Source: Patescibacteria group bacterium (GTDB taxonomy: Bacteria > Patescibacteriota > Patescibacteriia > Patescibacteriales > JAHJJO01). Taken from it: a stretch of DNA of 13,262 nt. Positions 1 through 12,177 of the stretch are shown piece after piece. A program made the position numbers and the translations under genes. Under the pieces are notes generated by a model. It was not told where the DNA came from. It searched no databases and was given only the letters and a program-made list of their open reading frames with translations. Position 1 is the stretch's first letter; every line of letters begins with the position of its first letter. Location: positions 1 to 13,262 of the forward strand of contig JAHJJO010000102.1 in NCBI GenBank assembly GCA_018822835.1, written 5' to 3'.

Positions 1-169
1 AATATTTCATAGCCATCTCTATGTCTTTAAATTCTGCTATTTTATCTGAATATTCACCTTCATTGCCTGTTACCCCACTATATTGGTAAATTAAATATTT
101 ATTATTAACAATCTCCAAGAGATAATGTTTTCCATTTTGTGCTATCTTTTTTAAATATTTTATAGACAT
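1..169 (-). CDS. Unidentified protein, N-terminal 56 residues (runs off left edge)
   Basis: An open frame starts at the ATG at 169-167 and stays open to the window edge, giving the first 56 residues of a protein that begins MSIKYLKKIAQNGKHY. The part seen is soluble-looking and short-segmented, with IAQNGKHYLLEI and YLIYQYSGVTGNEGEYSD. I see no signal peptide, no membrane segment and no family motif I can name. No Shine-Dalgarno site is evident upstream. It is separated from the next gene by about 140 bases containing short inverted repeats. It is probably a real gene because codon use and residue make-up match the neighbours, but no function can be given. Confidence 0.5.
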   Translation of the reverse strand, partial: MSIKYLKKIAQNGKHYLLEIVNNKYLIYQYSGVTGNEGEYSDKIAEFKDIEMAMKY

Positions 170-3858: not shown

Positions 3859-4803
3859 TCACAGTTTTAAAATTTTTTGTTTGTTGTATTTTTCTAATTG
3901 TTCTCTGACTTTCTTTTCCATTTTTAGATGCGAAACATTACCAGCATTTTGCAAAATTTCTTTATCATTTAAAATTAAAAATTCATCCAACTTTTGAATC
4001 CAGTTTTTCATATACATTACTCTTTGTTCTACGCTTTGCAATTCCGCGAAAGACAAAAACTGCTCAACTAATAAATTTAATCTTTTTAATTCTAATTTTT
4101 GCAAATAATTTTTAGCAATTTGCGCTTGCTCTCGAGTAATAATTTCGCCTTTCCAATTTGTAAGCCCTAAATTTTCTTTTTTACTATCAACTCGGCTAGA
4201 GACAATTTCAGCCACGGTTAAACCTGTAATAGCAAAATGAAATTTGTTTTGCACAGTGGCATAAAATAATTTAGCATAATCTGCTTTAGGATTATAGTCA
4301 GCGCTGGTGGCAAAAACATCCCTAACTTTTTGGTAAAAATTAGCTTCTGATGTTCTAATCCTCCTGATTCTGTCTTCCCATTCTTCAAAATAAGTTTTTG
4401 CCACCCTACCTTCTGCCAATCGTTCATCATCCATAGCAAAGCTTTTAATAATATAATCTCGTAATTTTTGCGTAGCCCATATTCTAAATTGCGTACCATG
4501 TAAAGATTTTACGCGATAACCAACAGAAATAATTATATCAAGATTATAAAAATTAGTAGTGTACATTTTACCATCAGAAGCAGTTATCCGGAATTTCCGG
4601 ATAACTGAATTTTCCGCTAATTCTCCCTCAAAAAACACATTTTTTATATGTTCGTTGATAGTTCTAACATCTTTATCAAAAAGCTCAGCCATCTGTTTTT
4701 GCGAAAGCCAAACAGTGTCATCTTTTATCCGCACTTCAATTTTTGTCTGCCCATCCACAGTGTTGTAAATAATAAGTTGGTTGTTTCTTTGATTGTCATT
4801 CAT
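3859..4803 (-). CDS. rhuM: RhuM family protein
   Basis: The 314-residue protein matches the RhuM ('virulence protein RhuM') family along its whole length. A helix-turn-helix-like N-terminus spans about 28-56 (DTVWLSQKQMAELFDKDVRT). The family core follows at 66-107 (SVIRKFRITASDGK, then FYNLDIIISVGYRV and GTQFRIWATQKLRDY). A C-terminal half at about 146-285 has FYQKVRDVFATSADY, LTVAEIVSSRVDS and MYMKNWIQKLDEFL. The family was named from a Salmonella pathogenicity island gene, is common on mobile DNA and in Patescibacteria, and its molecular function is not established. It ends with TGA, showing that TGA is a stop here. It lies 22 bases upstream of the Mur ligase start. Its key motif VIRKFRIT is encoded by a 27-bp palindrome. 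Confidence 0.88.
   Translation of the reverse strand: MNDNQRNNQLIIYNTVDGQTKIEVRIKDDTVWLSQKQMAELFDKDVRTINEHIKNVFFEGELAENSVIRKFRITASDGKMYTTNFYNLDIIISVGYRVKSLHGTQFRIWATQKLRDYIIKSFAMDDERLAEGRVAKTYFEEWEDRIRRIRTSEANFYQKVRDVFATSADYNPKADYAKLFYATVQNKFHFAITGLTVAEIVSSRVDSKKENLGLTNWKGEIITREQAQIAKNYLQKLELKRLNLLVEQFLSFAELQSVEQRVMYMKNWIQKLDEFLILNDKEILQNAGNVSHLKMEKKVREQLEKYNKQKILKL
4581..4607. repeat. 27-bp palindrome coding the conserved RhuM motif
   Basis: Thirteen-base arms (CAGTTATCCGGAA / TTCCGGATAACTG) around a central T are a perfect inverted repeat. It encodes the family-typical SVIRKFRITA, so unlike the other palindromes here it is not an insertion. It uses CGG for arginine, a rare codon in this AT-rich window. 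Confidence 0.8.
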
Positions 4804-5832: not shown

Positions 5833-6648
5833 TTATTTCAATTTTTTTATCTCTTTATTGCCTAAAAGCGATTTCATTTGAGCTATGGCAATATTATTAA
5901 GTTTTTGAATTCGTTTTTCTTGAGTTAATCCCTCGTTAATTAATATTGCGTTTATACTTTCAAGATTTGACAAAACAACTAACTGTTCAATTTCAGCATA
6001 ATCGCGAATATTACCATCTAATTTTGGATTTTTATCTCGCCATGTTTTTGCGGTAATACCAAATAAAGCCATATTTAAAAGATCTGCTTCATTTGCATAT
6101 TTTGAATTAATTTGATATTTGGTTAATTCTGGCGGAATTAGATTTTCTTTTATTGCGTCAGTATGAATTTTATAATTAATTTTTGCTAATGTTCTTTGAA
6201 GATTCCATTCAAGTTTAAGATTGTTTGTCTCATTTGCTTTAAGACGTTGAAATTCTTTAATAAGGTAGATTTTAAATTCAGCGCTAATCCACATTCCAAA
6301 TTCAAAAGCAATGTCTTTGTGGGCGTAAGTACCGCCATATCTTCCTGTTGTGGCCTTTAATCCTATTGCATTAGTTTTTTTAACCCATTCTTTTGCGCTT
6401 ATCTTATAATTATTTAATCCTGCTTTACTTTTAATTATGGCAAATTCGCCACAATTAAAAGTTGGATTATAGATACTTTCCCAAATACCCAAAAATTCAA
6501 CCGTATTTCTGTTCCTGAGCCAGTCAGAAATAAAAAAATCACCATCTTTTGCTTTAAGCATGTCAGTCAATGAAATATAATCATTATTACGATATTTAAT
6601 GATTGTAATTTTGTTTCCCTTCACTGTTATAATTTTATTTTTTGTCAT
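5833..6648 (-). CDS. KilA-N domain protein
   Basis: The 271-residue protein carries a KilA-N DNA-binding domain over residues ~14-137. The landmarks are YISLTDML (24-31), SDWLRNRNTVEFLGIWE (41-57), TGRYGGTYAHKDIAFEFG (101-118) and SAEFKIYLIKEFQRLK (122-137). The C-terminal half (138-271) is helical and includes EADLLNMALFGITAKTWR, a segment seen in many bacterial KilA-N proteins. KilA-N proteins are phage- or virus-type DNA-binding proteins related to antirepressors; a host target here is unknown. It is intact, with a normal start (MTKNKIITVKGN) and TAA stop. It sits in a run of similar mobile DNA-binding proteins (RhuM, DinD, Bro-N). Confidence 0.85.
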   Translation of the reverse strand: MTKNKIITVKGNKITIIKYRNNDYISLTDMLKAKDGDFFISDWLRNRNTVEFLGIWESIYNPTFNCGEFAIIKSKAGLNNYKISAKEWVKKTNAIGLKATTGRYGGTYAHKDIAFEFGMWISAEFKIYLIKEFQRLKANETNNLKLEWNLQRTLAKINYKIHTDAIKENLIPPELTKYQINSKYANEADLLNMALFGITAKTWRDKNPKLDGNIRDYAEIEQLVVLSNLESINAILINEGLTQEKRIQKLNNIAIAQMKSLLGNKEIKKLK

Positions 6649-7850: not shown

Positions 7851-8792
7851 TTATGTTTTTGCTTTTCTTTTAAACCCCGCCTTCCCGCCAATCCACGCCA
7901 AAAATATTCCAATCGGCCATGCTAATCGTAAAATACAATATTGCCATATTGAATGCCATTTTTTAAAATATTTTAACATTGAATCGCGAAAATATTTTTG
8001 TGTTTTAATTGATGCGACTTGTTTAAAGCTTTGTCCAACATAATCAACGCATTTAGCAACAGGAGTGTACCATACTTCGCCTTTATTTTGATAAACTTGT
8101 TTGCAAAAATCAACCTCTTCAAACCAAAGAAAATATTGCTCATCCAAACGAAACATAGCTTTTGAAGCAGACATCCAATGTCTGTCTGTTCCACACCAAT
8201 GGACGACAGGCCGAGTATTTCTAACCATAAAAAATCCTCCTCGTATAGAATCTACTTTTGACGGCTTGCTGTAATCAAAATTTTCGCGTAAATATTTTCT
8301 TAAAATTTTTGGAAATACATGAGGAAGTTTTAATACAATTGCAAGTTGATCCCAAATTGTTGGAAATCTACGAATGCTTTGTATTGTTTTGTCTTGCTGG
8401 TCAATTAAATTACACCCTGCAATGCTGGCTTGTTTATTTTCTTTCATCCAATTTACCATATTAATTAAAGTATCAGGCATGACTTCCATATCAGGGTTTA
8501 AAAGCAAAATAAAATCGCCCTTTGCCTTACAAAGGGCTTGATTATTCGCTGCGGCAAATCCTAAATTTTTTTGATTGGCGATCAGCTTTAATTGTCCAGT
8601 TAAATAATTCGATTCATCTAATAGCGCTTGCGGAAATTTTTTTTTGATCATCTCAACAGAATTGTCAGATGAATTATTGTCAACTATAAAAATTTCAAAT
8701 TTTAAATTGCCTTTGCTTTGCAAGAGTTTTTCTAAATTTTTTTTTAGTTTTTCTTTAACGTTCCAAGAAACAATAATTATTGATAAATCCAT
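7851..8792 (-). CDS. Family 2 glycosyltransferase (rhamnosyltransferase-like)
   Basis: A 313-residue GT-A enzyme. The nucleotide-sugar N-terminus SIIIVSWN (4-11) is followed by VDNNSSDNS (37-45), the metal-binding NPDM in place of DXD (99-102), the acceptor-side GGFFMV (185-190) and EEVDFC (225-230). A hydrophobic amphipathic C-terminus (about 284-303) is likely membrane-associated. This matches the WbbL/rhamnosyltransferase branch that adds a sugar to surface polysaccharide or lipid carriers. The donor and acceptor are not determined by the sequence. Residues 192-210, between FMVR and KAMFRLDEQYF, appear to be an in-frame repeat insertion. The gene lies alone, with its start 80 bases from the plus-strand promoter of the RNA locus. 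Confidence 0.85.
   Translation of the reverse strand: MDLSIIIVSWNVKEKLKKNLEKLLQSKGNLKFEIFIVDNNSSDNSVEMIKKKFPQALLDESNYLTGQLKLIANQKNLGFAAANNQALCKAKGDFILLLNPDMEVMPDTLINMVNWMKENKQASIAGCNLIDQQDKTIQSIRRFPTIWDQLAIVLKLPHVFPKILRKYLRENFDYSKPSKVDSIRGGFFMVRNTRPVVHWCGTDRHWMSASKAMFRLDEQYFLWFEEVDFCKQVYQNKGEVWYTPVAKCVDYVGQSFKQVASIKTQKYFRDSMLKYFKKWHSIWQYCILRLAWPIGIFLAWIGGKAGFKRKAKT
8163..8219. repeat. Palindrome-containing in-frame insertion in the glycosyltransferase gene
   Basis: The core CAGACATCCAATGTCTG (8168-8184) has 7-bp perfect arms, and related pieces (ACCAATGGACGACAGG) follow. It is read as about 19 residues rich in Trp, His, Arg and Cys, placed exactly where the family runs directly from FMVR to the next helix. 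That position and composition are the evidence for insertion. The borders are approximate. Confidence 0.6.
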
Positions 8793-8873
8793 ATATCTCT
8801 GATGATATGTAATTTGTTAACCAATTATTTTATTAATTTTATCGGACATATTTTGCTTGTGGATAATTTTTTC

Positions 8874-8901
8874 TTGACATTAATATATGGTGTGTTATAT
8901 T
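8874..8901 (+). promoter_or_regulatory. Sigma70-like promoter of the RNA locus
   Basis: TTGACA (8874-8879) is a perfect -35 and TATATT (8896-8901) a one-mismatch -10, 16 bases apart. The start point would be about 8907-8909. This is the clearest promoter in the window and it points away from all protein genes. A perfect DnaA-box-type 9-mer (TGTGGATAA, 8858-8866) lies just upstream of the -35. Confidence 0.7.
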
Positions 8902-8906
8902 AATAA

Positions 8907-8988
8907 TAAGTTCGCAGTCTATGTGATCCCATACTATTGGGCCAATAGAATAAAAACATCCTTATATTCATGAGGGTGTTTTTGTTTT
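8907..8988 (+). ncRNA. Leader RNA complementary to the downstream tRNA anticodon arm
   Basis: The RNA from the promoter to the first terminator would be about 80 nt. Its 5' end (8904-8923) is complementary to 9044-9063, the whole anticodon arm of the tRNA. Seventeen of 20 positions are perfect and two more can pair as G-U, with an exact 8-mer GTTCGCAG facing the anticodon loop CTGCGAAC. It then forms a small hairpin (CCCA/TGGG, 8928-8941) and contains the 15-bp interrupted palindrome CTATTGG-G-CCAATAG (8934-8948), whose second half again complements tRNA bases 9058-9064. No protein is encoded. Read on the minus strand, 8904-8948 looks like a decayed D-arm plus anticodon arm with the same GCG loop, so an inverted tRNA duplication is the alternative origin. 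Confidence 0.5.
8952..8988 (+). terminator. Hairpin terminator between the leader and the tRNA
   Basis: AAAAACATCCT (8952-8962) pairs with AGGGTGTTTTT (8973-8983) as 11 bp with one G-U and a 10-base loop, followed by GTTTT. The A-run on the other side makes it usable from the minus strand too. In the plus direction it would stop most transcripts before the tRNA, so tRNA synthesis may depend on read-through or antitermination. Confidence 0.75.
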
Positions 8989-9017
8989 GAATATGCTACG
9001 ATATTAATGCGGTGGTA

Positions 9018-9102
9018 GGGGAACGATATGCCAAGGTTGGCATCATAGGCTGCGAACCTATTGGCACTTTTATAGTGTGGGGTTCAATTCCCCCGTTCTC
9101 CA
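9018..9102 (+). tRNA. Unusual class II tRNA, anticodon GCG, 8+4 bp acceptor/T arrangement
   Basis: An 85-nt cloverleaf. The acceptor stem is GGGGAACG (9018-9025) with CGTTCTCC (9094-9101), 8 bp with one G-U. The D-arm is ATGCC/GGCAT with loop AAGGTT, and the anticodon arm is ATAGG/CCTAT (9045-9061) with loop CTGCGAA, giving anticodon GCG at 9052-9054. The variable arm has a 5-bp stem (9064-9078), and the T-arm is GGGG/CCCC with loop TTCAATT. The discriminator is A, followed by CC but not CCA. A 7+5 reading would need a T-C mismatch and lose U8, so 8+4 fits better. GCG would read Arg CGC/CGU, yet long variable arms belong to Leu, Ser, Tyr and Sec tRNAs. 8+4 class II tRNAs with odd anticodons are known as allo-tRNAs. 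Amino acid identity is not settled. Confidence 0.75.
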
Positions 9103-9109
9103 CCGCGCT

Positions 9110-9147
9110 AAAAATCATCTCAATTGCGAGGTGGTTTTTTAGTTTTT
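9110..9147. terminator. Bidirectional terminator after the tRNA and after rplA
   Basis: AAAAATCATCTC (9110-9121) pairs with GAGGTGGTTTTT (9128-9139) over 12 bp with two G-U pairs and a 6-base loop. T-runs follow on both strands. It ends the plus-strand tRNA transcript 8 bases after the tRNA and would also stop the minus-strand rplA transcript before it runs antisense through the tRNA. Confidence 0.85.
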
Positions 9148-9206
9148 AATTGGTCAGATTACGAATTTAAAATATGTTATGAGTTGTTCCAAAATTTCGG
9201 GATGCG

Positions 9207-9958: not shown

Positions 9959-10387
9959 TTATTCATTTGTAATATTTGAATACATTTGAAGATTCGAATT
10001 ATGTTCATAAAATTGACTATTTAATATTCTTTTTGGCACTATTCTATTTTGCCTAAAGTTAACTAATATTCCTAATTGTAAATTCAATGTTGTTAAATAC
10101 CGTTTTACTTGATAATAATCTTCAGTAGTAATAAAATTTTTAGCTTTAAATTCTAAAATTATTTTATCATCAATAATAAAATCACAGATACATCTTATTT
10201 TATTTTGACCATATTGACTATCTTCAAATCTATATTCTCTAACATATTTTATGTTTTCTCTATTTAATAATTGCTCAAAATGATCTGCGTATTGTTTTTC
10301 ATTTTTATAGCGTCCTAATGTTTTATGATTTTCAAATAATAAACCAACAATTTTGTAAGATAATTTTTTATGAACAACCTTATCCAT
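9959..10387 (-). CDS. GxxExxY family protein (PD-(D/E)XK nuclease-like)
   Basis: The 142-residue protein resembles the GxxExxY family. Its helix 11-41 (YKIVGLLFENHKTLGRYKNE, then KQYADHFEQLL) is followed by a core with Asp69 and the pair Glu79-x-Lys81 in CDFIIDDKIILEFKA, the layout of a PD-(D/E)XK nuclease site. YYQVKRYLTTLNLQLGILVNF completes the fold. The family's function is unproven; nuclease activity is an inference from the motif. The last 13 residues are encoded by repeat copy B and look like an acquired extension. The gene is flanked by inverted 39-bp repeats, so it reads as a mobile or once-mobile cassette inserted upstream of rplA. Confidence 0.78.
   Translation of the reverse strand: MDKVVHKKLSYKIVGLLFENHKTLGRYKNEKQYADHFEQLLNRENIKYVREYRFEDSQYGQNKIRCICDFIIDDKIILEFKAKNFITTEDYYQVKRYLTTLNLQLGILVNFRQNRIVPKRILNSQFYEHNSNLQMYSNITNE
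9965..10002 (+). repeat. 39-bp repeat, copy B (within the GxxExxY gene end)
   Basis: ATTTGTAATATTTGAATACA, then TTTGAAGATTCGAATTAT, is a diverged copy of the same repeat in the same orientation as copies C and D. It supplies the C-terminal codons and lies next to the stop of the GxxExxY gene. Confidence 0.8.
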
Positions 10388-10469: not shown

Positions 10470-11624
10470 TTATATTTTAAATAAACTGACTTTAAACTCC
10501 TCATCAAGCACTTCAAACTTCGGTTCTGTGTTGTTATTTTCTTTCATTAAGCGGATAATTTTTTGAATTCCAGTTCCTAAACTTTCTATGTAATTCAGAT
10601 TATCTAAAATGCGAACAATAAAATGATTTCTTGTCTGTTGCGCGTATAAAATGTTACTTAATGTAATCGTATTTGGCAATCGTCCCGGGCTATAAATTTC
10701 CATTCTATCTTTGAATATAAAAATCCTAATACTGGAGCCAGCAATGCTATAATTTCTATGCGCTACTGCATTCACCACAACTTCTCTAATAGCCTCTATT
10801 GGATATTCTGTTTTATATATTCGCTTAAACCCTTCTATTTCAGACGGGCTTTTCATATAAAATTTAATTAATTTTTCCGTTTCATCTATTTGCAGTGGCA
10901 AAGTTCCTGTTATTTCTTTTTTGTCAATCATTTTACTTGTAACGTCATTGCCATCAAATACGGCCAATTTAATTACTGCTTGCGGTAAAAATTTTTGCGT
11001 ATTTTTGCCAAACAATAAAAGTCCGCCCACTGTGGCTGTTAAATTATTACTTTCTTGTTTTAAAATTTTTAAATTACAAAATAATTGTTCTAAATCAATT
11101 TGTTCATTGTAAATATCTTTATTGTAAACTTGGTGAAAATATTGATTAACTTTATCTTTGTCTATGTCAGCAAGCGAACTTTTTTTAACAGAATTTTGAT
11201 CGTAATCAATAACTCCGGCATCTTGATAAATTCTTCCAAGTTCTTCTTTGGACGCTTTTCTTTTAGTAGTCCCAACTCTAATATAAAATACTCCTTTATT
11301 AGTTTGATGAGGTCTAAAAGCGTTTTTAGAAATTTCAATCGCGGCTACTTTTTTATTTTGGATTTCAGAAACAAAAAAATTAACAGAAATTTCTGGTAAA
11401 ATATTTTGTCGAGAAATATTCATTATTTTTTCTTCCAATTGTTTTGTTTCTTCTAATCCTTTTATTTCTCCATTATCTTTCACTCCCAAAACAATCATCC
11501 CGCCCTCAGTATTCGCGAACGCGCAAATTTCAGCAGTTAAATCATCAACATTCGGCAATTTCTCTTTAAATTCCACAAACAAACTTTCCCCGTCAATTAT
11601 AGCTTTTTTAATTTTTTCTTGCAT
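10470..11624 (-). CDS. AlbA_2 (Schlafen-type) domain protein with GHKL-like ATP-binding region
   Basis: The 384-residue protein starts at MQEKIKKAI (ATG 11624-11622); a GTG five codons upstream is an alternative. Residues ~14-125 form the AlbA_2/Schlafen-type nucleic-acid-binding domain (SLFVEFKEKLP, FANTEGGMIVLGV, IRVGTTKRKAS). Residues ~245-355 form the HATPase_c_4 region, with the N-box EVVVNAVAHRNY (281-292), SPGRLP (312-317) and ESLGTGIQKI (347-356). This is the COG2865 type, usually annotated as a transcriptional regulator or ATP-binding protein. Members are common near defence and mobile genes, but a role here is not shown. A helix-turn-helix C-terminus often found in the family is absent or short. 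It sits in the block that splits rplK from rplA. Confidence 0.82.
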   Translation of the reverse strand: MQEKIKKAIIDGESLFVEFKEKLPNVDDLTAEICAFANTEGGMIVLGVKDNGEIKGLEETKQLEEKIMNISRQNILPEISVNFFVSEIQNKKVAAIEISKNAFRPHQTNKGVFYIRVGTTKRKASKEELGRIYQDAGVIDYDQNSVKKSSLADIDKDKVNQYFHQVYNKDIYNEQIDLEQLFCNLKILKQESNNLTATVGGLLLFGKNTQKFLPQAVIKLAVFDGNDVTSKMIDKKEITGTLPLQIDETEKLIKFYMKSPSEIEGFKRIYKTEYPIEAIREVVVNAVAHRNYSIAGSSIRIFIFKDRMEIYSPGRLPNTITLSNILYAQQTRNHFIVRILDNLNYIESLGTGIQKIIRLMKENNNTEPKFEVLDEEFKVSLFKI

Positions 11625-11658
11625 AAAACAAACAGCCACAAATTATATAGCTCTTAAA

Positions 11659-12177
11659 TTATTTTGGCTCTAACACAAGCATATACGCGCTTGAATCTAA
11701 AATATTATTATACCAAGCAAATATTAAATCATTTTCTTTTATTGTAAATTCCTTTTTAAGTACTGGGTCAGTGTACCAAAACATATCTTTTTGATATTTT
11801 GTAATAACAATATAATGACCTGGTTTATCAAATTTTGTATTTCTTAAAAGGCAAGTGCGGACAGCAATTATCACGGGGAGACCTTTTTTAAGAAATTTAA
11901 TAATAAGATTTTTGTTTGGTTTTTTTATTTCGGCTTTACCCTAACTAAGTTTCTCATTATATGAATAGCAATGAACTTTAAATCCAAATTTTTTAGCATA
12001 TTCTGCTAAATGTATAGCTCGTACCCCAGAATTTTTTTTCATCCCACCTAAATTTTGAATAATTTTATTCAAAGGAATTGGATGTTTAAAATATTTTAAA
12101 ACCACTGCTAATGCCTTTGGTCCACAAGCTTTTTTGGTTCGTTTGAATTTCAATAATGGGATAGCTATTTTTTTCAT
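11659..12177 (-). pseudogene. C39-type peptidase-like gene interrupted by an in-frame TAG
   Basis: One frame of 173 codons runs from the ATG at 12177-12175 to the TAA at 11661-11659, broken only by TAG at 11943-11941 (codon 79). The parts on both sides make a complete C39/papain-like domain. Cys18 is in KACGPKALAVVLKYF, His121 in KPGHYIVITKY and Asp137 in FWYTDP. C39 peptidases cut double-glycine leader peptides or serve as stand-alone cysteine peptidases. With no transporter next door, the stand-alone type fits. As sequenced, the first 78 residues keep only the cysteine. It is a recent nonsense mutation, a sequencing error or a read-through gene. It is the first gene of the insertion after rplK. 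Confidence 0.72.

Follow-up and report, generated by a model that had tools for sequence, protein, structure and literature searches.

Positions 8858-9140 of the analyzed DNA (hereafter the window: 13,262 nt, contig JAHJJO010000102.1 of assembly GCA_018822835.1, Patescibacteria group bacterium, forward strand) read as two RNA genes, in which a predicted small RNA of about 80 nt is antisense to the anticodon arm of the tRNA encoded next to it. Judged from sequence, this complementarity is real and maintained by selection across the phylum. Across the units compared, the tRNA combines features of serine or alanine identity with an isoleucine, valine or arginine anticodon, and we consider it likely that such a tRNA is held inactive by its dedicated antisense RNA, which would make the small RNA the silencer of a miscoding tRNA.

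Organization of the two RNA genes

The predicted gene order on the plus strand is a promoter, the small RNA and a terminator, and after these a tRNA gene that is preceded by a weak -10 and closed by a second terminator. The small-RNA promoter (8874-8901) was recognized by motif match as TTGACA at 8874-8879 and a TG-extended -10, TATATT, at 8896-8901. Directly upstream at 8858-8866 is the 9-mer TGTGGATAA (complement TTATCCACA), which we take to be DnaA-box-like and which was compared across units as an exact string. With the start inferred from the -10 and the end from a T-run, the predicted small RNA spans 8908-8990; it comprises the anti-anticodon element GTTCGCAGTCTATG (8910-8923), a second complementary stretch GATCCCATACTAT (8925-8937) and possibly a third, GCCAATAG (8941-8948), read from the sequence as the complement of CTATTGGC at 9058-9065 and also able to pair inside the small RNA. 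The original prediction had placed a terminator hairpin between the two complementary halves, and a terminator-like hairpin followed by a T-run is indeed present at 8949-8986, found from inverted-repeat and script evidence and absent from the output of a generic terminator scan of the window.

Upstream of the tRNA, a candidate weak TG-extended -10 (TGCTACGAT, 8994-9002; TG at 8994-8995 and TACGAT at 8997-9002) was picked by eye with two mismatches, six bases before 9009; the script picked a different site, also with two mismatches. The tRNA unit (9009-9106), delimited by inverted repeat and alignment, is closed by a flanking helix of GCGGT (9009-9013) and ACCGC (9102-9106). The tRNA itself (9018-9102), supported by Rfam, ARAGORN and the alignment, has an 8-bp acceptor (9018-9025/9094-9101) with G3:U70 and discriminator A9102, and the alignment gives a 4-bp T stem (9079-9082/9090-9093) and a V stem (9064-9068/9074-9078). 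The anticodon arm targeted by the element lies at 9045-9061, with the loop CTGCGAA at 9050-9056 and the anticodon GCG at 9052-9054. A second terminator-like hairpin was found by script at 9110-9139. The flanking helix includes the discriminator base, in a C:G pair in about half of the aligned units and in a U:A pair in the window and in locus L061.

Complementarity within the window

The inverted repeat 8905-8923/9044-9062 is 89% complementary over 19 nt, and extending it to 21 columns (8904-8924 with 9043-9063) gives 17 Watson-Crick (WC) pairs, two G-U pairs and two non-pairs, so that the 19 of 20 pairable positions originally counted between 8904-8923 and 9044-9063 hold. None of 60 dinucleotide shuffles reached the window's run of 13 WC pairs, the shuffle maximum being 8. 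The match had also been described as beginning essentially at the predicted transcription start, and here the extent needs correction while the complementarity itself stands: the conserved core duplex comprises 14 bp, 8910-8923 with 9044-9057, covering the 5' strand of the anticodon stem, the whole loop and one extra base, whereas the outer part (8904-8909 with 9058-9063) pairs across the family at or slightly above the non-cognate level and lies partly upstream of the likely start at about 8908, as inferred from the -10.

The complementary stretch had been viewed as a leader of the tRNA transcript. It is probably not, because a terminator lies between the two and a TG-extended -10-like site precedes the tRNA; two related units in which the element is downstream of the tRNA point the same way. 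Some read-through from the small RNA into the tRNA may nevertheless occur.

Distribution of related units

A blastn search of 8904-9106 against 60 genomes, including the genome of origin, gave matches in four. Only G012 among the other genomes matched over the whole unit, at 71% identity and with different neighbor genes; in G049 and G018 the match was confined to 34-40 bases around the terminator of the small RNA, and these two were left out of the counts. Searched with a covariance model built from two tRNA units, the 111 genomes of the order gave 12 matches (E up to 1e-8), which fell in 10 of them, and a 12-sequence model gave at least 15 matches in at least 13 of 380 genomes of the class (E up to 1e-9). 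In a phylum sample, at least 2 of 379 genomes, including the genome of origin, were matched at E up to 1e-8. The class and phylum-sample tallies are lower bounds, with 10 candidates scored per genome and at most two in the search for the second family described below. A pattern scan of genome contigs gave 13 loci, of which 10 repeat known units and three are new (L083, L091, L093); 10 of the 13 are titled Patescibacteria group, Parcubacteria, Uhrbacteria or Magasanikbacteria, and the remaining three are titled 'bacterium' only, namely two from one isolate that repeat units of the window's order, and L093.

Removal of repeats left 24 distinct units in the phylum of the window; the sequences left out were the 10 genome-contig loci with a tRNA unit identical to a known one, L078 (as L077), L060 (identical to the window) and L057 (identical to L061). 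Read from the loop, the anticodon is GAU in 21 units, GAC in one (L073) and GCG in two (the window and L061). Several genomes carry more than one module, with at least three in G012 (L061, L080, L126) and at least two each in G032, G078, G298 and G430. The element is upstream of the tRNA in 22 units and downstream in L069 and L075, and L083 has about 110 extra bases between the small-RNA gene and the tRNA gene. Two exact patterns each gave no match in viral contigs, and window positions 8870-9150 gave no blastn match in plasmids and phages; therefore, no mobile carrier was found at that sensitivity.

Covariation between the element and the anticodon arm

The original prediction called for a search of relatives for covariation between leader and anticodon arm, and in this comparison complementarity was kept in all 24 units, with compensatory changes. 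The best contiguous pairing of the flank with its own anticodon arm ranged from 11 to 17 WC pairs, and among 1440 shuffles only one, for L068, reached the observed pairing. In the 14-column core, 329 of 336 positions pair (311 of them WC), compared with 100-130 when the element is slid by 1-3 columns; since each element was put in register by its best run, the slid control leans toward shift 0, a bias that the shuffle test does not have. Across 11 disjoint closest pairs of units there were 57 anticodon-arm changes, of which 43 were double-compensated, 10 were kept by G-U pairing or a one-sided change and four were broken. Up to four WC pair types occurred per stem column, and stem-column WC pairs numbered 203 of 336 versus a permutation mean of 123 and a maximum of 153 in 5000 permutations.

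As a control, 144 other tRNAs from the same loci were examined; none had 11 pairs and the maximum was 10. This set left out tRNAs with fewer than 150 bases upstream or 60 downstream. An initial control of 76 other tRNAs had contained one 13-pair run, at a Val(gac) tRNA in L077 that is a member of the second family and was removed, together with all tRNAs beginning GGGCC[C/T]GT, before the count of 144. Of the 13 tRNAs in the removed class, 12 had runs of 11-15; the other, an ordinary tRNA-Ala in L112, had a run of 5.

Discrimination among module tRNAs was less sharp. The own tRNA was the strict best partner for only 14 of the 24 elements over 21 columns, and it ranked first in 11 of 24 when whole RNAs were cofolded (mean -8.6 vs -2.7 kcal/mol). 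Cofolding gave 0.0 kcal/mol for L075, and in G032 the small RNA of L064 bound the tRNA of L070 as well as its own (-7.4 vs -7.2). Whole-RNA cofolding separated partners poorly and is not used as main evidence.

Combined, the presence of the element in every unit and the compensatory changes strongly support the earlier suggestion of an antisense RNA masking the anticodon. Action in trans had also been suggested, and the two units with the element downstream of the tRNA (L069, L075) agree with it, since an RNA encoded there should act in trans. The opposite possibility, that the stretch is a decayed, functionless inverted duplication of the tRNA, has nothing in its favor beyond the similarity itself and is almost certainly wrong, given that 43 of the 57 changes are double-compensated and that the segments of the small RNA are permuted relative to an inverted copy.

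A second duplex and the signals of the small-RNA gene

The segment order is seen from a second stretch that follows the anti-anticodon element in 22 of the 24 units and is complementary to the V and T arms, whereas a linear antisense of the tRNA would carry the two segments in the opposite order. The usual target runs from the 3' strand of the V arm to the 5' strand of the T stem; in the window, 8925-8937 faces 9072-9084 (V-arm 3' strand, T-stem 5' strand and the start of the T loop) with 10 WC pairs in 13 positions, a value reached by none of 100 mononucleotide shuffles. In L062-L064, L066, L068 and L093 the best second run faces the 5' strand of the V arm instead. Cognate combinations averaged 9.6 WC pairs versus 5.7 for non-cognate ones, and in 22 of 24 units at most two of 100 mononucleotide shuffles reached the observed value; L069 and L075 showed no second duplex above shuffles (7 and 22 of 100 reached it, respectively). 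The V arm forms a hairpin of its own, so that complementarity to it and resemblance to it are not fully separable in this second duplex.

Signals expected of an independent small-RNA gene were common among the units. Promoters were taken as the best match in a fixed stretch, with shuffle nulls run afterwards. Of the 24 units, 20 have an exact TTGACA in the promoter of the small RNA, versus 0.8% of shuffles; the script detected the small-RNA terminator in 23 units versus 1.7% of shuffles, and a tRNA terminator was found in 17 units versus 2.7%. A -10 with at most one mismatch preceded the tRNA in 21 units but also appeared in 49% of shuffles, so the tRNA-promoter point alone is modest; the window is one of the three units with a poor tRNA -10. 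A TG at the extended position before the tRNA was counted, without a null, in 16 units.

These signals bear on a cis role of the element, either as leader of the tRNA gene or as an attenuator resembling a T-box. The intervening terminator and the weak tRNA promoter of the window would speak for such a role. The downstream position of the element in L069 and L075 argues against it, as do the Rfam searches, in which no T-box covariance-model match appeared up to E 5 in the window unit or L057, nor at the gathering threshold in the window; we regard cis action as most improbable. The related suggestion that tRNA level is coupled to termination found no support, since the terminator separates the two genes in nearly every unit.

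Eight of the 24 units have an exact copy of the DnaA-box-like 9-mer, on either strand, no more than 100 bases ahead of the element. Over 443 kb of loci the 9-mer occurred 32 times versus 3.4 expected, in loci that were chosen for tRNAs or modules and with repeats kept, and all nine distinct TGTGGATAA-N3..22-TTGACA strings in these 443 kb are module small-RNA promoters. A link of the module to replication is a guess.

Identity of the tRNA and its normal counterparts

The window tRNA is predicted by ARAGORN as tRNA-Arg(gcg) and belongs to class II. Its acceptor of 8 bp and T stem of 4 bp, together with a long V arm, make it an 8/4 allo-tRNA, and its anticodon is GCG. The Rfam tRNA-Sec model scores 54 bits at 9017-9102; a selenocysteine tRNA was considered on that basis and rejected, as the anticodon is GCG and not UCA. 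The 8/4 fold can be drawn in 23 aligned units (34 rows, 23 distinct) with an odd mismatch, for example in L067; L094 was folded by eye only. G73 is present in 21 of 23 tabulated units, and 14 of these 21 have GGAGAG with CTCTCC, like several normal tRNA-Ser of related genomes. In the other two, the window and L061, the acceptor instead carries the combination of G3:U70 with A73 that is seen in normal tRNA-Ala.

According to the available part of an allo-tRNA review (PMC7609411), SerRS recognizes the long V arm and G73, the allo-tRNAs tested inserted serine or alanine whatever their anticodon, and among irregular allo-tRNAs found in soil metatranscriptomes there were some that E. coli synthetases did not charge. 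An identity that is read without the anticodon, combined with an Ile, Val or Arg anticodon, leads to the prediction that the free tRNA would miscode, inserting serine or alanine at Ile, Val or Arg codons. In 11 open reading frames of the window, the codons concerned are Ile AUY (235), Val GUY (107) and Arg CGY (31) of 3208; the small number of CGY codons, those matching the window tRNA, counts against the miscoding reading.

The element prefers its own tRNA over the normal isoacceptor. In nine units whose genome has a normal tRNA with the same anticodon, elements paired with their own tRNA at 13.7 of 14 columns (mean -25 kcal/mol) and with the normal one at 8.2 of 14 (-10); the closest fit to a normal isoacceptor was that of the L061 element to normal tRNA-Arg(GCG), at 11 of 14. 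The fit of the loop complement to normal isoacceptors could suggest that the tRNA is a decoy, or sponge, for a small RNA whose real targets lie elsewhere, such as the normal tRNAs. The element nonetheless tracks the stem of its own tRNA, and a sponge would have no need for Ser/Ala acceptor identity, so that this explanation is very improbable. Only marginally better placed, and still quite unlikely, is a role of the small RNA as a chaperone or processing guide, the duplex directing RNase III or other maturation of an unusual pre-tRNA. The flanking helix that closes the tRNA unit in most aligned units (by eye) may indeed call for special processing, but the duplex covers the anticodon and V/T arms, at a distance from the termini where processing would take place.

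Of the 19 module genomes, 13 contain a pattern resembling normal tRNA-Ile(GAU); ARAGORN confirmed Ile(GAU) in ten (G000, G012, G019, G032, G050, G063, G078, G090, G324, G380), with G430 as an eleventh. The pattern was not found in the other six (G052, G061, G077, G158, G228, G298). Normal tRNA-Arg(GCG) is present in G012 and was not found in the genome of the window, which is fragmentary and 88% complete. Where the normal isoacceptor was not found, a housekeeping decoding role is possible, for AUY in the six genomes.

This observation also favors a different use of the same physical mechanism, namely regulated adaptive mistranslation or alternative decoding, in which the tRNA would be useful in some condition and the antisense RNA would be its off-switch rather than an antitoxin of the addiction kind. 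The DnaA-box-like string at the small-RNA promoter in eight units suggests a controlled input, and the retention of a drawable 8/4 fold in the 23 aligned units is likewise consistent with a useful tRNA. However, normal Ile(GAU) is present in most module genomes, and the patchy spread (10 of 111 genomes of the order and at least 2 of 379 in the phylum sample) and the presence of several unlike copies in one genome are more reminiscent of addiction or defense modules. We therefore consider adaptive mistranslation possible but unlikely.

Proposed mechanism

In the silencer reading, a strong promoter would drive a small RNA whose 5' end is complementary, over 14 nt, to the loop and the 5' strand of the anticodon stem in the adjacent tRNA; the anti-V/T stretch comes next. 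Binding the tRNA in trans, the small RNA would mask the anticodon and open the arms read by the synthetase, and the bound tRNA would be neither charged nor read. The identity elements of the tRNA would suit synthetases that ignore the anticodon, through the long V arm and G73 in the serine type and G3:U70 and A73 in the alanine type. If small-RNA synthesis failed, the tRNA would escape and miscode, and the small RNA would thus be, in effect, an antitoxin. The sequences show the complementarity, its covariation, the preference for the own tRNA over the normal isoacceptor, and the promoter and terminator motifs; we infer that the genes are transcribed, that the duplex forms in the cell, that the tRNA is charged with serine or alanine and is toxic, and that a trigger exists. 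Our view of this reading as likely is unchanged because the support from the tRNA promoter weakened while that from the normal Ile tRNA strengthened.

A second family on a class I backbone

Relatives of the Val(gac) module of L077 (for example L077:1077-1280, minus strand) were found in at least 12 of 380 genomes of the class (loci L124-L135). This second family of 13 units has a class I, alanine-type tRNA with upstream stretches that form 10 to 17 WC pairs with the tRNA. Because membership required a tRNA with 5' GGGCC and 3' GTCCA, G3:U70 and A73 are present by construction. With 40 mononucleotide shuffles per unit, four of the 13 (L129, L130 and both units of L132) had a best shuffle no more than one pair short of the observed value, and in L129 the two were equal. 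Six units (L124, L125, L128, L133, L134, L135) have three segments in the order anti-23..35, anti-3..17 and anti-32..47, and four further units have the first and last of these.

ARAGORN called these tRNAs Val(gac), Ile(gat), Ile(tat) and, in six cases, Ser(tga), leaving L133 uncalled; we read the six Ser(tga) calls as GAC in 7- or 9-base loops. The anticodons of the family are thus read as GAC, GAU or UAU, and several anticodon loops are enlarged. In L132, two tandem modules have nearly identical promoters, and their elements and anticodon arms have diverged together. A different tRNA backbone, with an identity also read without the anticodon, thus has the same antisense arrangement.

Comparison with known systems

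The T-box riboswitch is an RNA that pairs with an anticodon and has a terminator nearby. The module resembles it in both respects and differs in its 14-bp duplex over stem and loop, in the occasional downstream position of the element and in giving no Rfam T-box match in the window unit or L057. To our knowledge, no known kind fits the anatomy of the module. The original paper on allo-tRNAs of the 8/4 and 9/3 forms is reportedly that of Mukai et al. in 2017. The available text of the review places these forms in Clostridia, Proteobacteria and Acidobacteria (PMC7609411). Module tRNAs share with known allo-tRNAs the 12-bp acceptor domain in the 8/4 form, the long V arm, non-Ser anticodons including GCG, and Ser identity or G3:U70 (PMC7609411, available text); unlike these, they occur in Patescibacteria, have GAU in 21 of 24 units and are each accompanied by a covarying antisense element. 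The word 'antisense' does not occur in the available text of that review.

The nearest functional kind is the type VIII toxin-antitoxin system, of which CreTA and SdsR-RyeA likewise place an RNA effector and an RNA antagonist side by side (PMC10767807, PMC12737573, available parts). By its sequence, the module has adjacent RNA genes and a covarying antisense, which would be the antagonist. In the available parts of the same sources, tRNA-UCU is depleted by the mRNA-like CreT RNA, and the creT promoter is the site at which CreA acts with Cascade (PMC10767807, PMC12737573). In the module, a tRNA would instead serve as effector, with an RNA antisense to its anticodon and V/T arms as antagonist. 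As far as the available text describes them, type I systems also use a small antisense RNA as antitoxin, but their toxin is a protein from the paired mRNA, and the partner in the module is a tRNA. Among the matches listed in a search of titles and abstract beginnings of open-access literature, a scope that takes in few subscription papers, there was no natural antisense RNA to a tRNA, and a term search of the available part of PMC8629427 gave nothing relevant.

On the broader proposal, that the modules form an RNA-only toxin-antitoxin (or abortive-infection) class, we are evenly divided. The toxin would be a miscoding tRNA charged by an anticodon-ignoring synthetase and the antitoxin an antisense RNA over the anticodon and V/T arms; the class would have arisen on two backbones (Ser-type class II and Ala-type class I), and an antitoxin promoter often placed beside a DnaA box would link release to replication state. 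If the silencer reading is right, some cells keep tRNAs that would break the code, each held down by a matched RNA; orphan allo-tRNAs would gain a role, and conditional miscoding would become testable in a small, protein-free cassette.

Genomic neighborhoods

Comparison of the open frames of 35 loci gave 22 pairwise matches and no family common to more than a few loci. A glycosyltransferase is common to the window and L064, and the neighborhoods of L066 and L091 and of L094 and L126 are partly syntenic. The glycosyltransferase beside the window module (7851-8792) is 55% identical to the one that adjoins the L064 module, where the gene lies on the opposite strand relative to the tRNA. Elsewhere in the window, Pfam matches to Bro-N, RhuM, KilA-N, PDDEXK_3 and SLFN_AlbA_2 domains were found in genes at 366-1307, 3859-4803, 5833-6648, 9959-10387 and 10470-11639; judging by eye from the open reading frames, genes that we take to resemble rplA, rplK and nusG stand among them. 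In the region 11659-12177, a C39 peptidase match (Pfam) at 11941-12177 and a short open reading frame just beyond it (11659-11874) are possibly pieces of one split gene.
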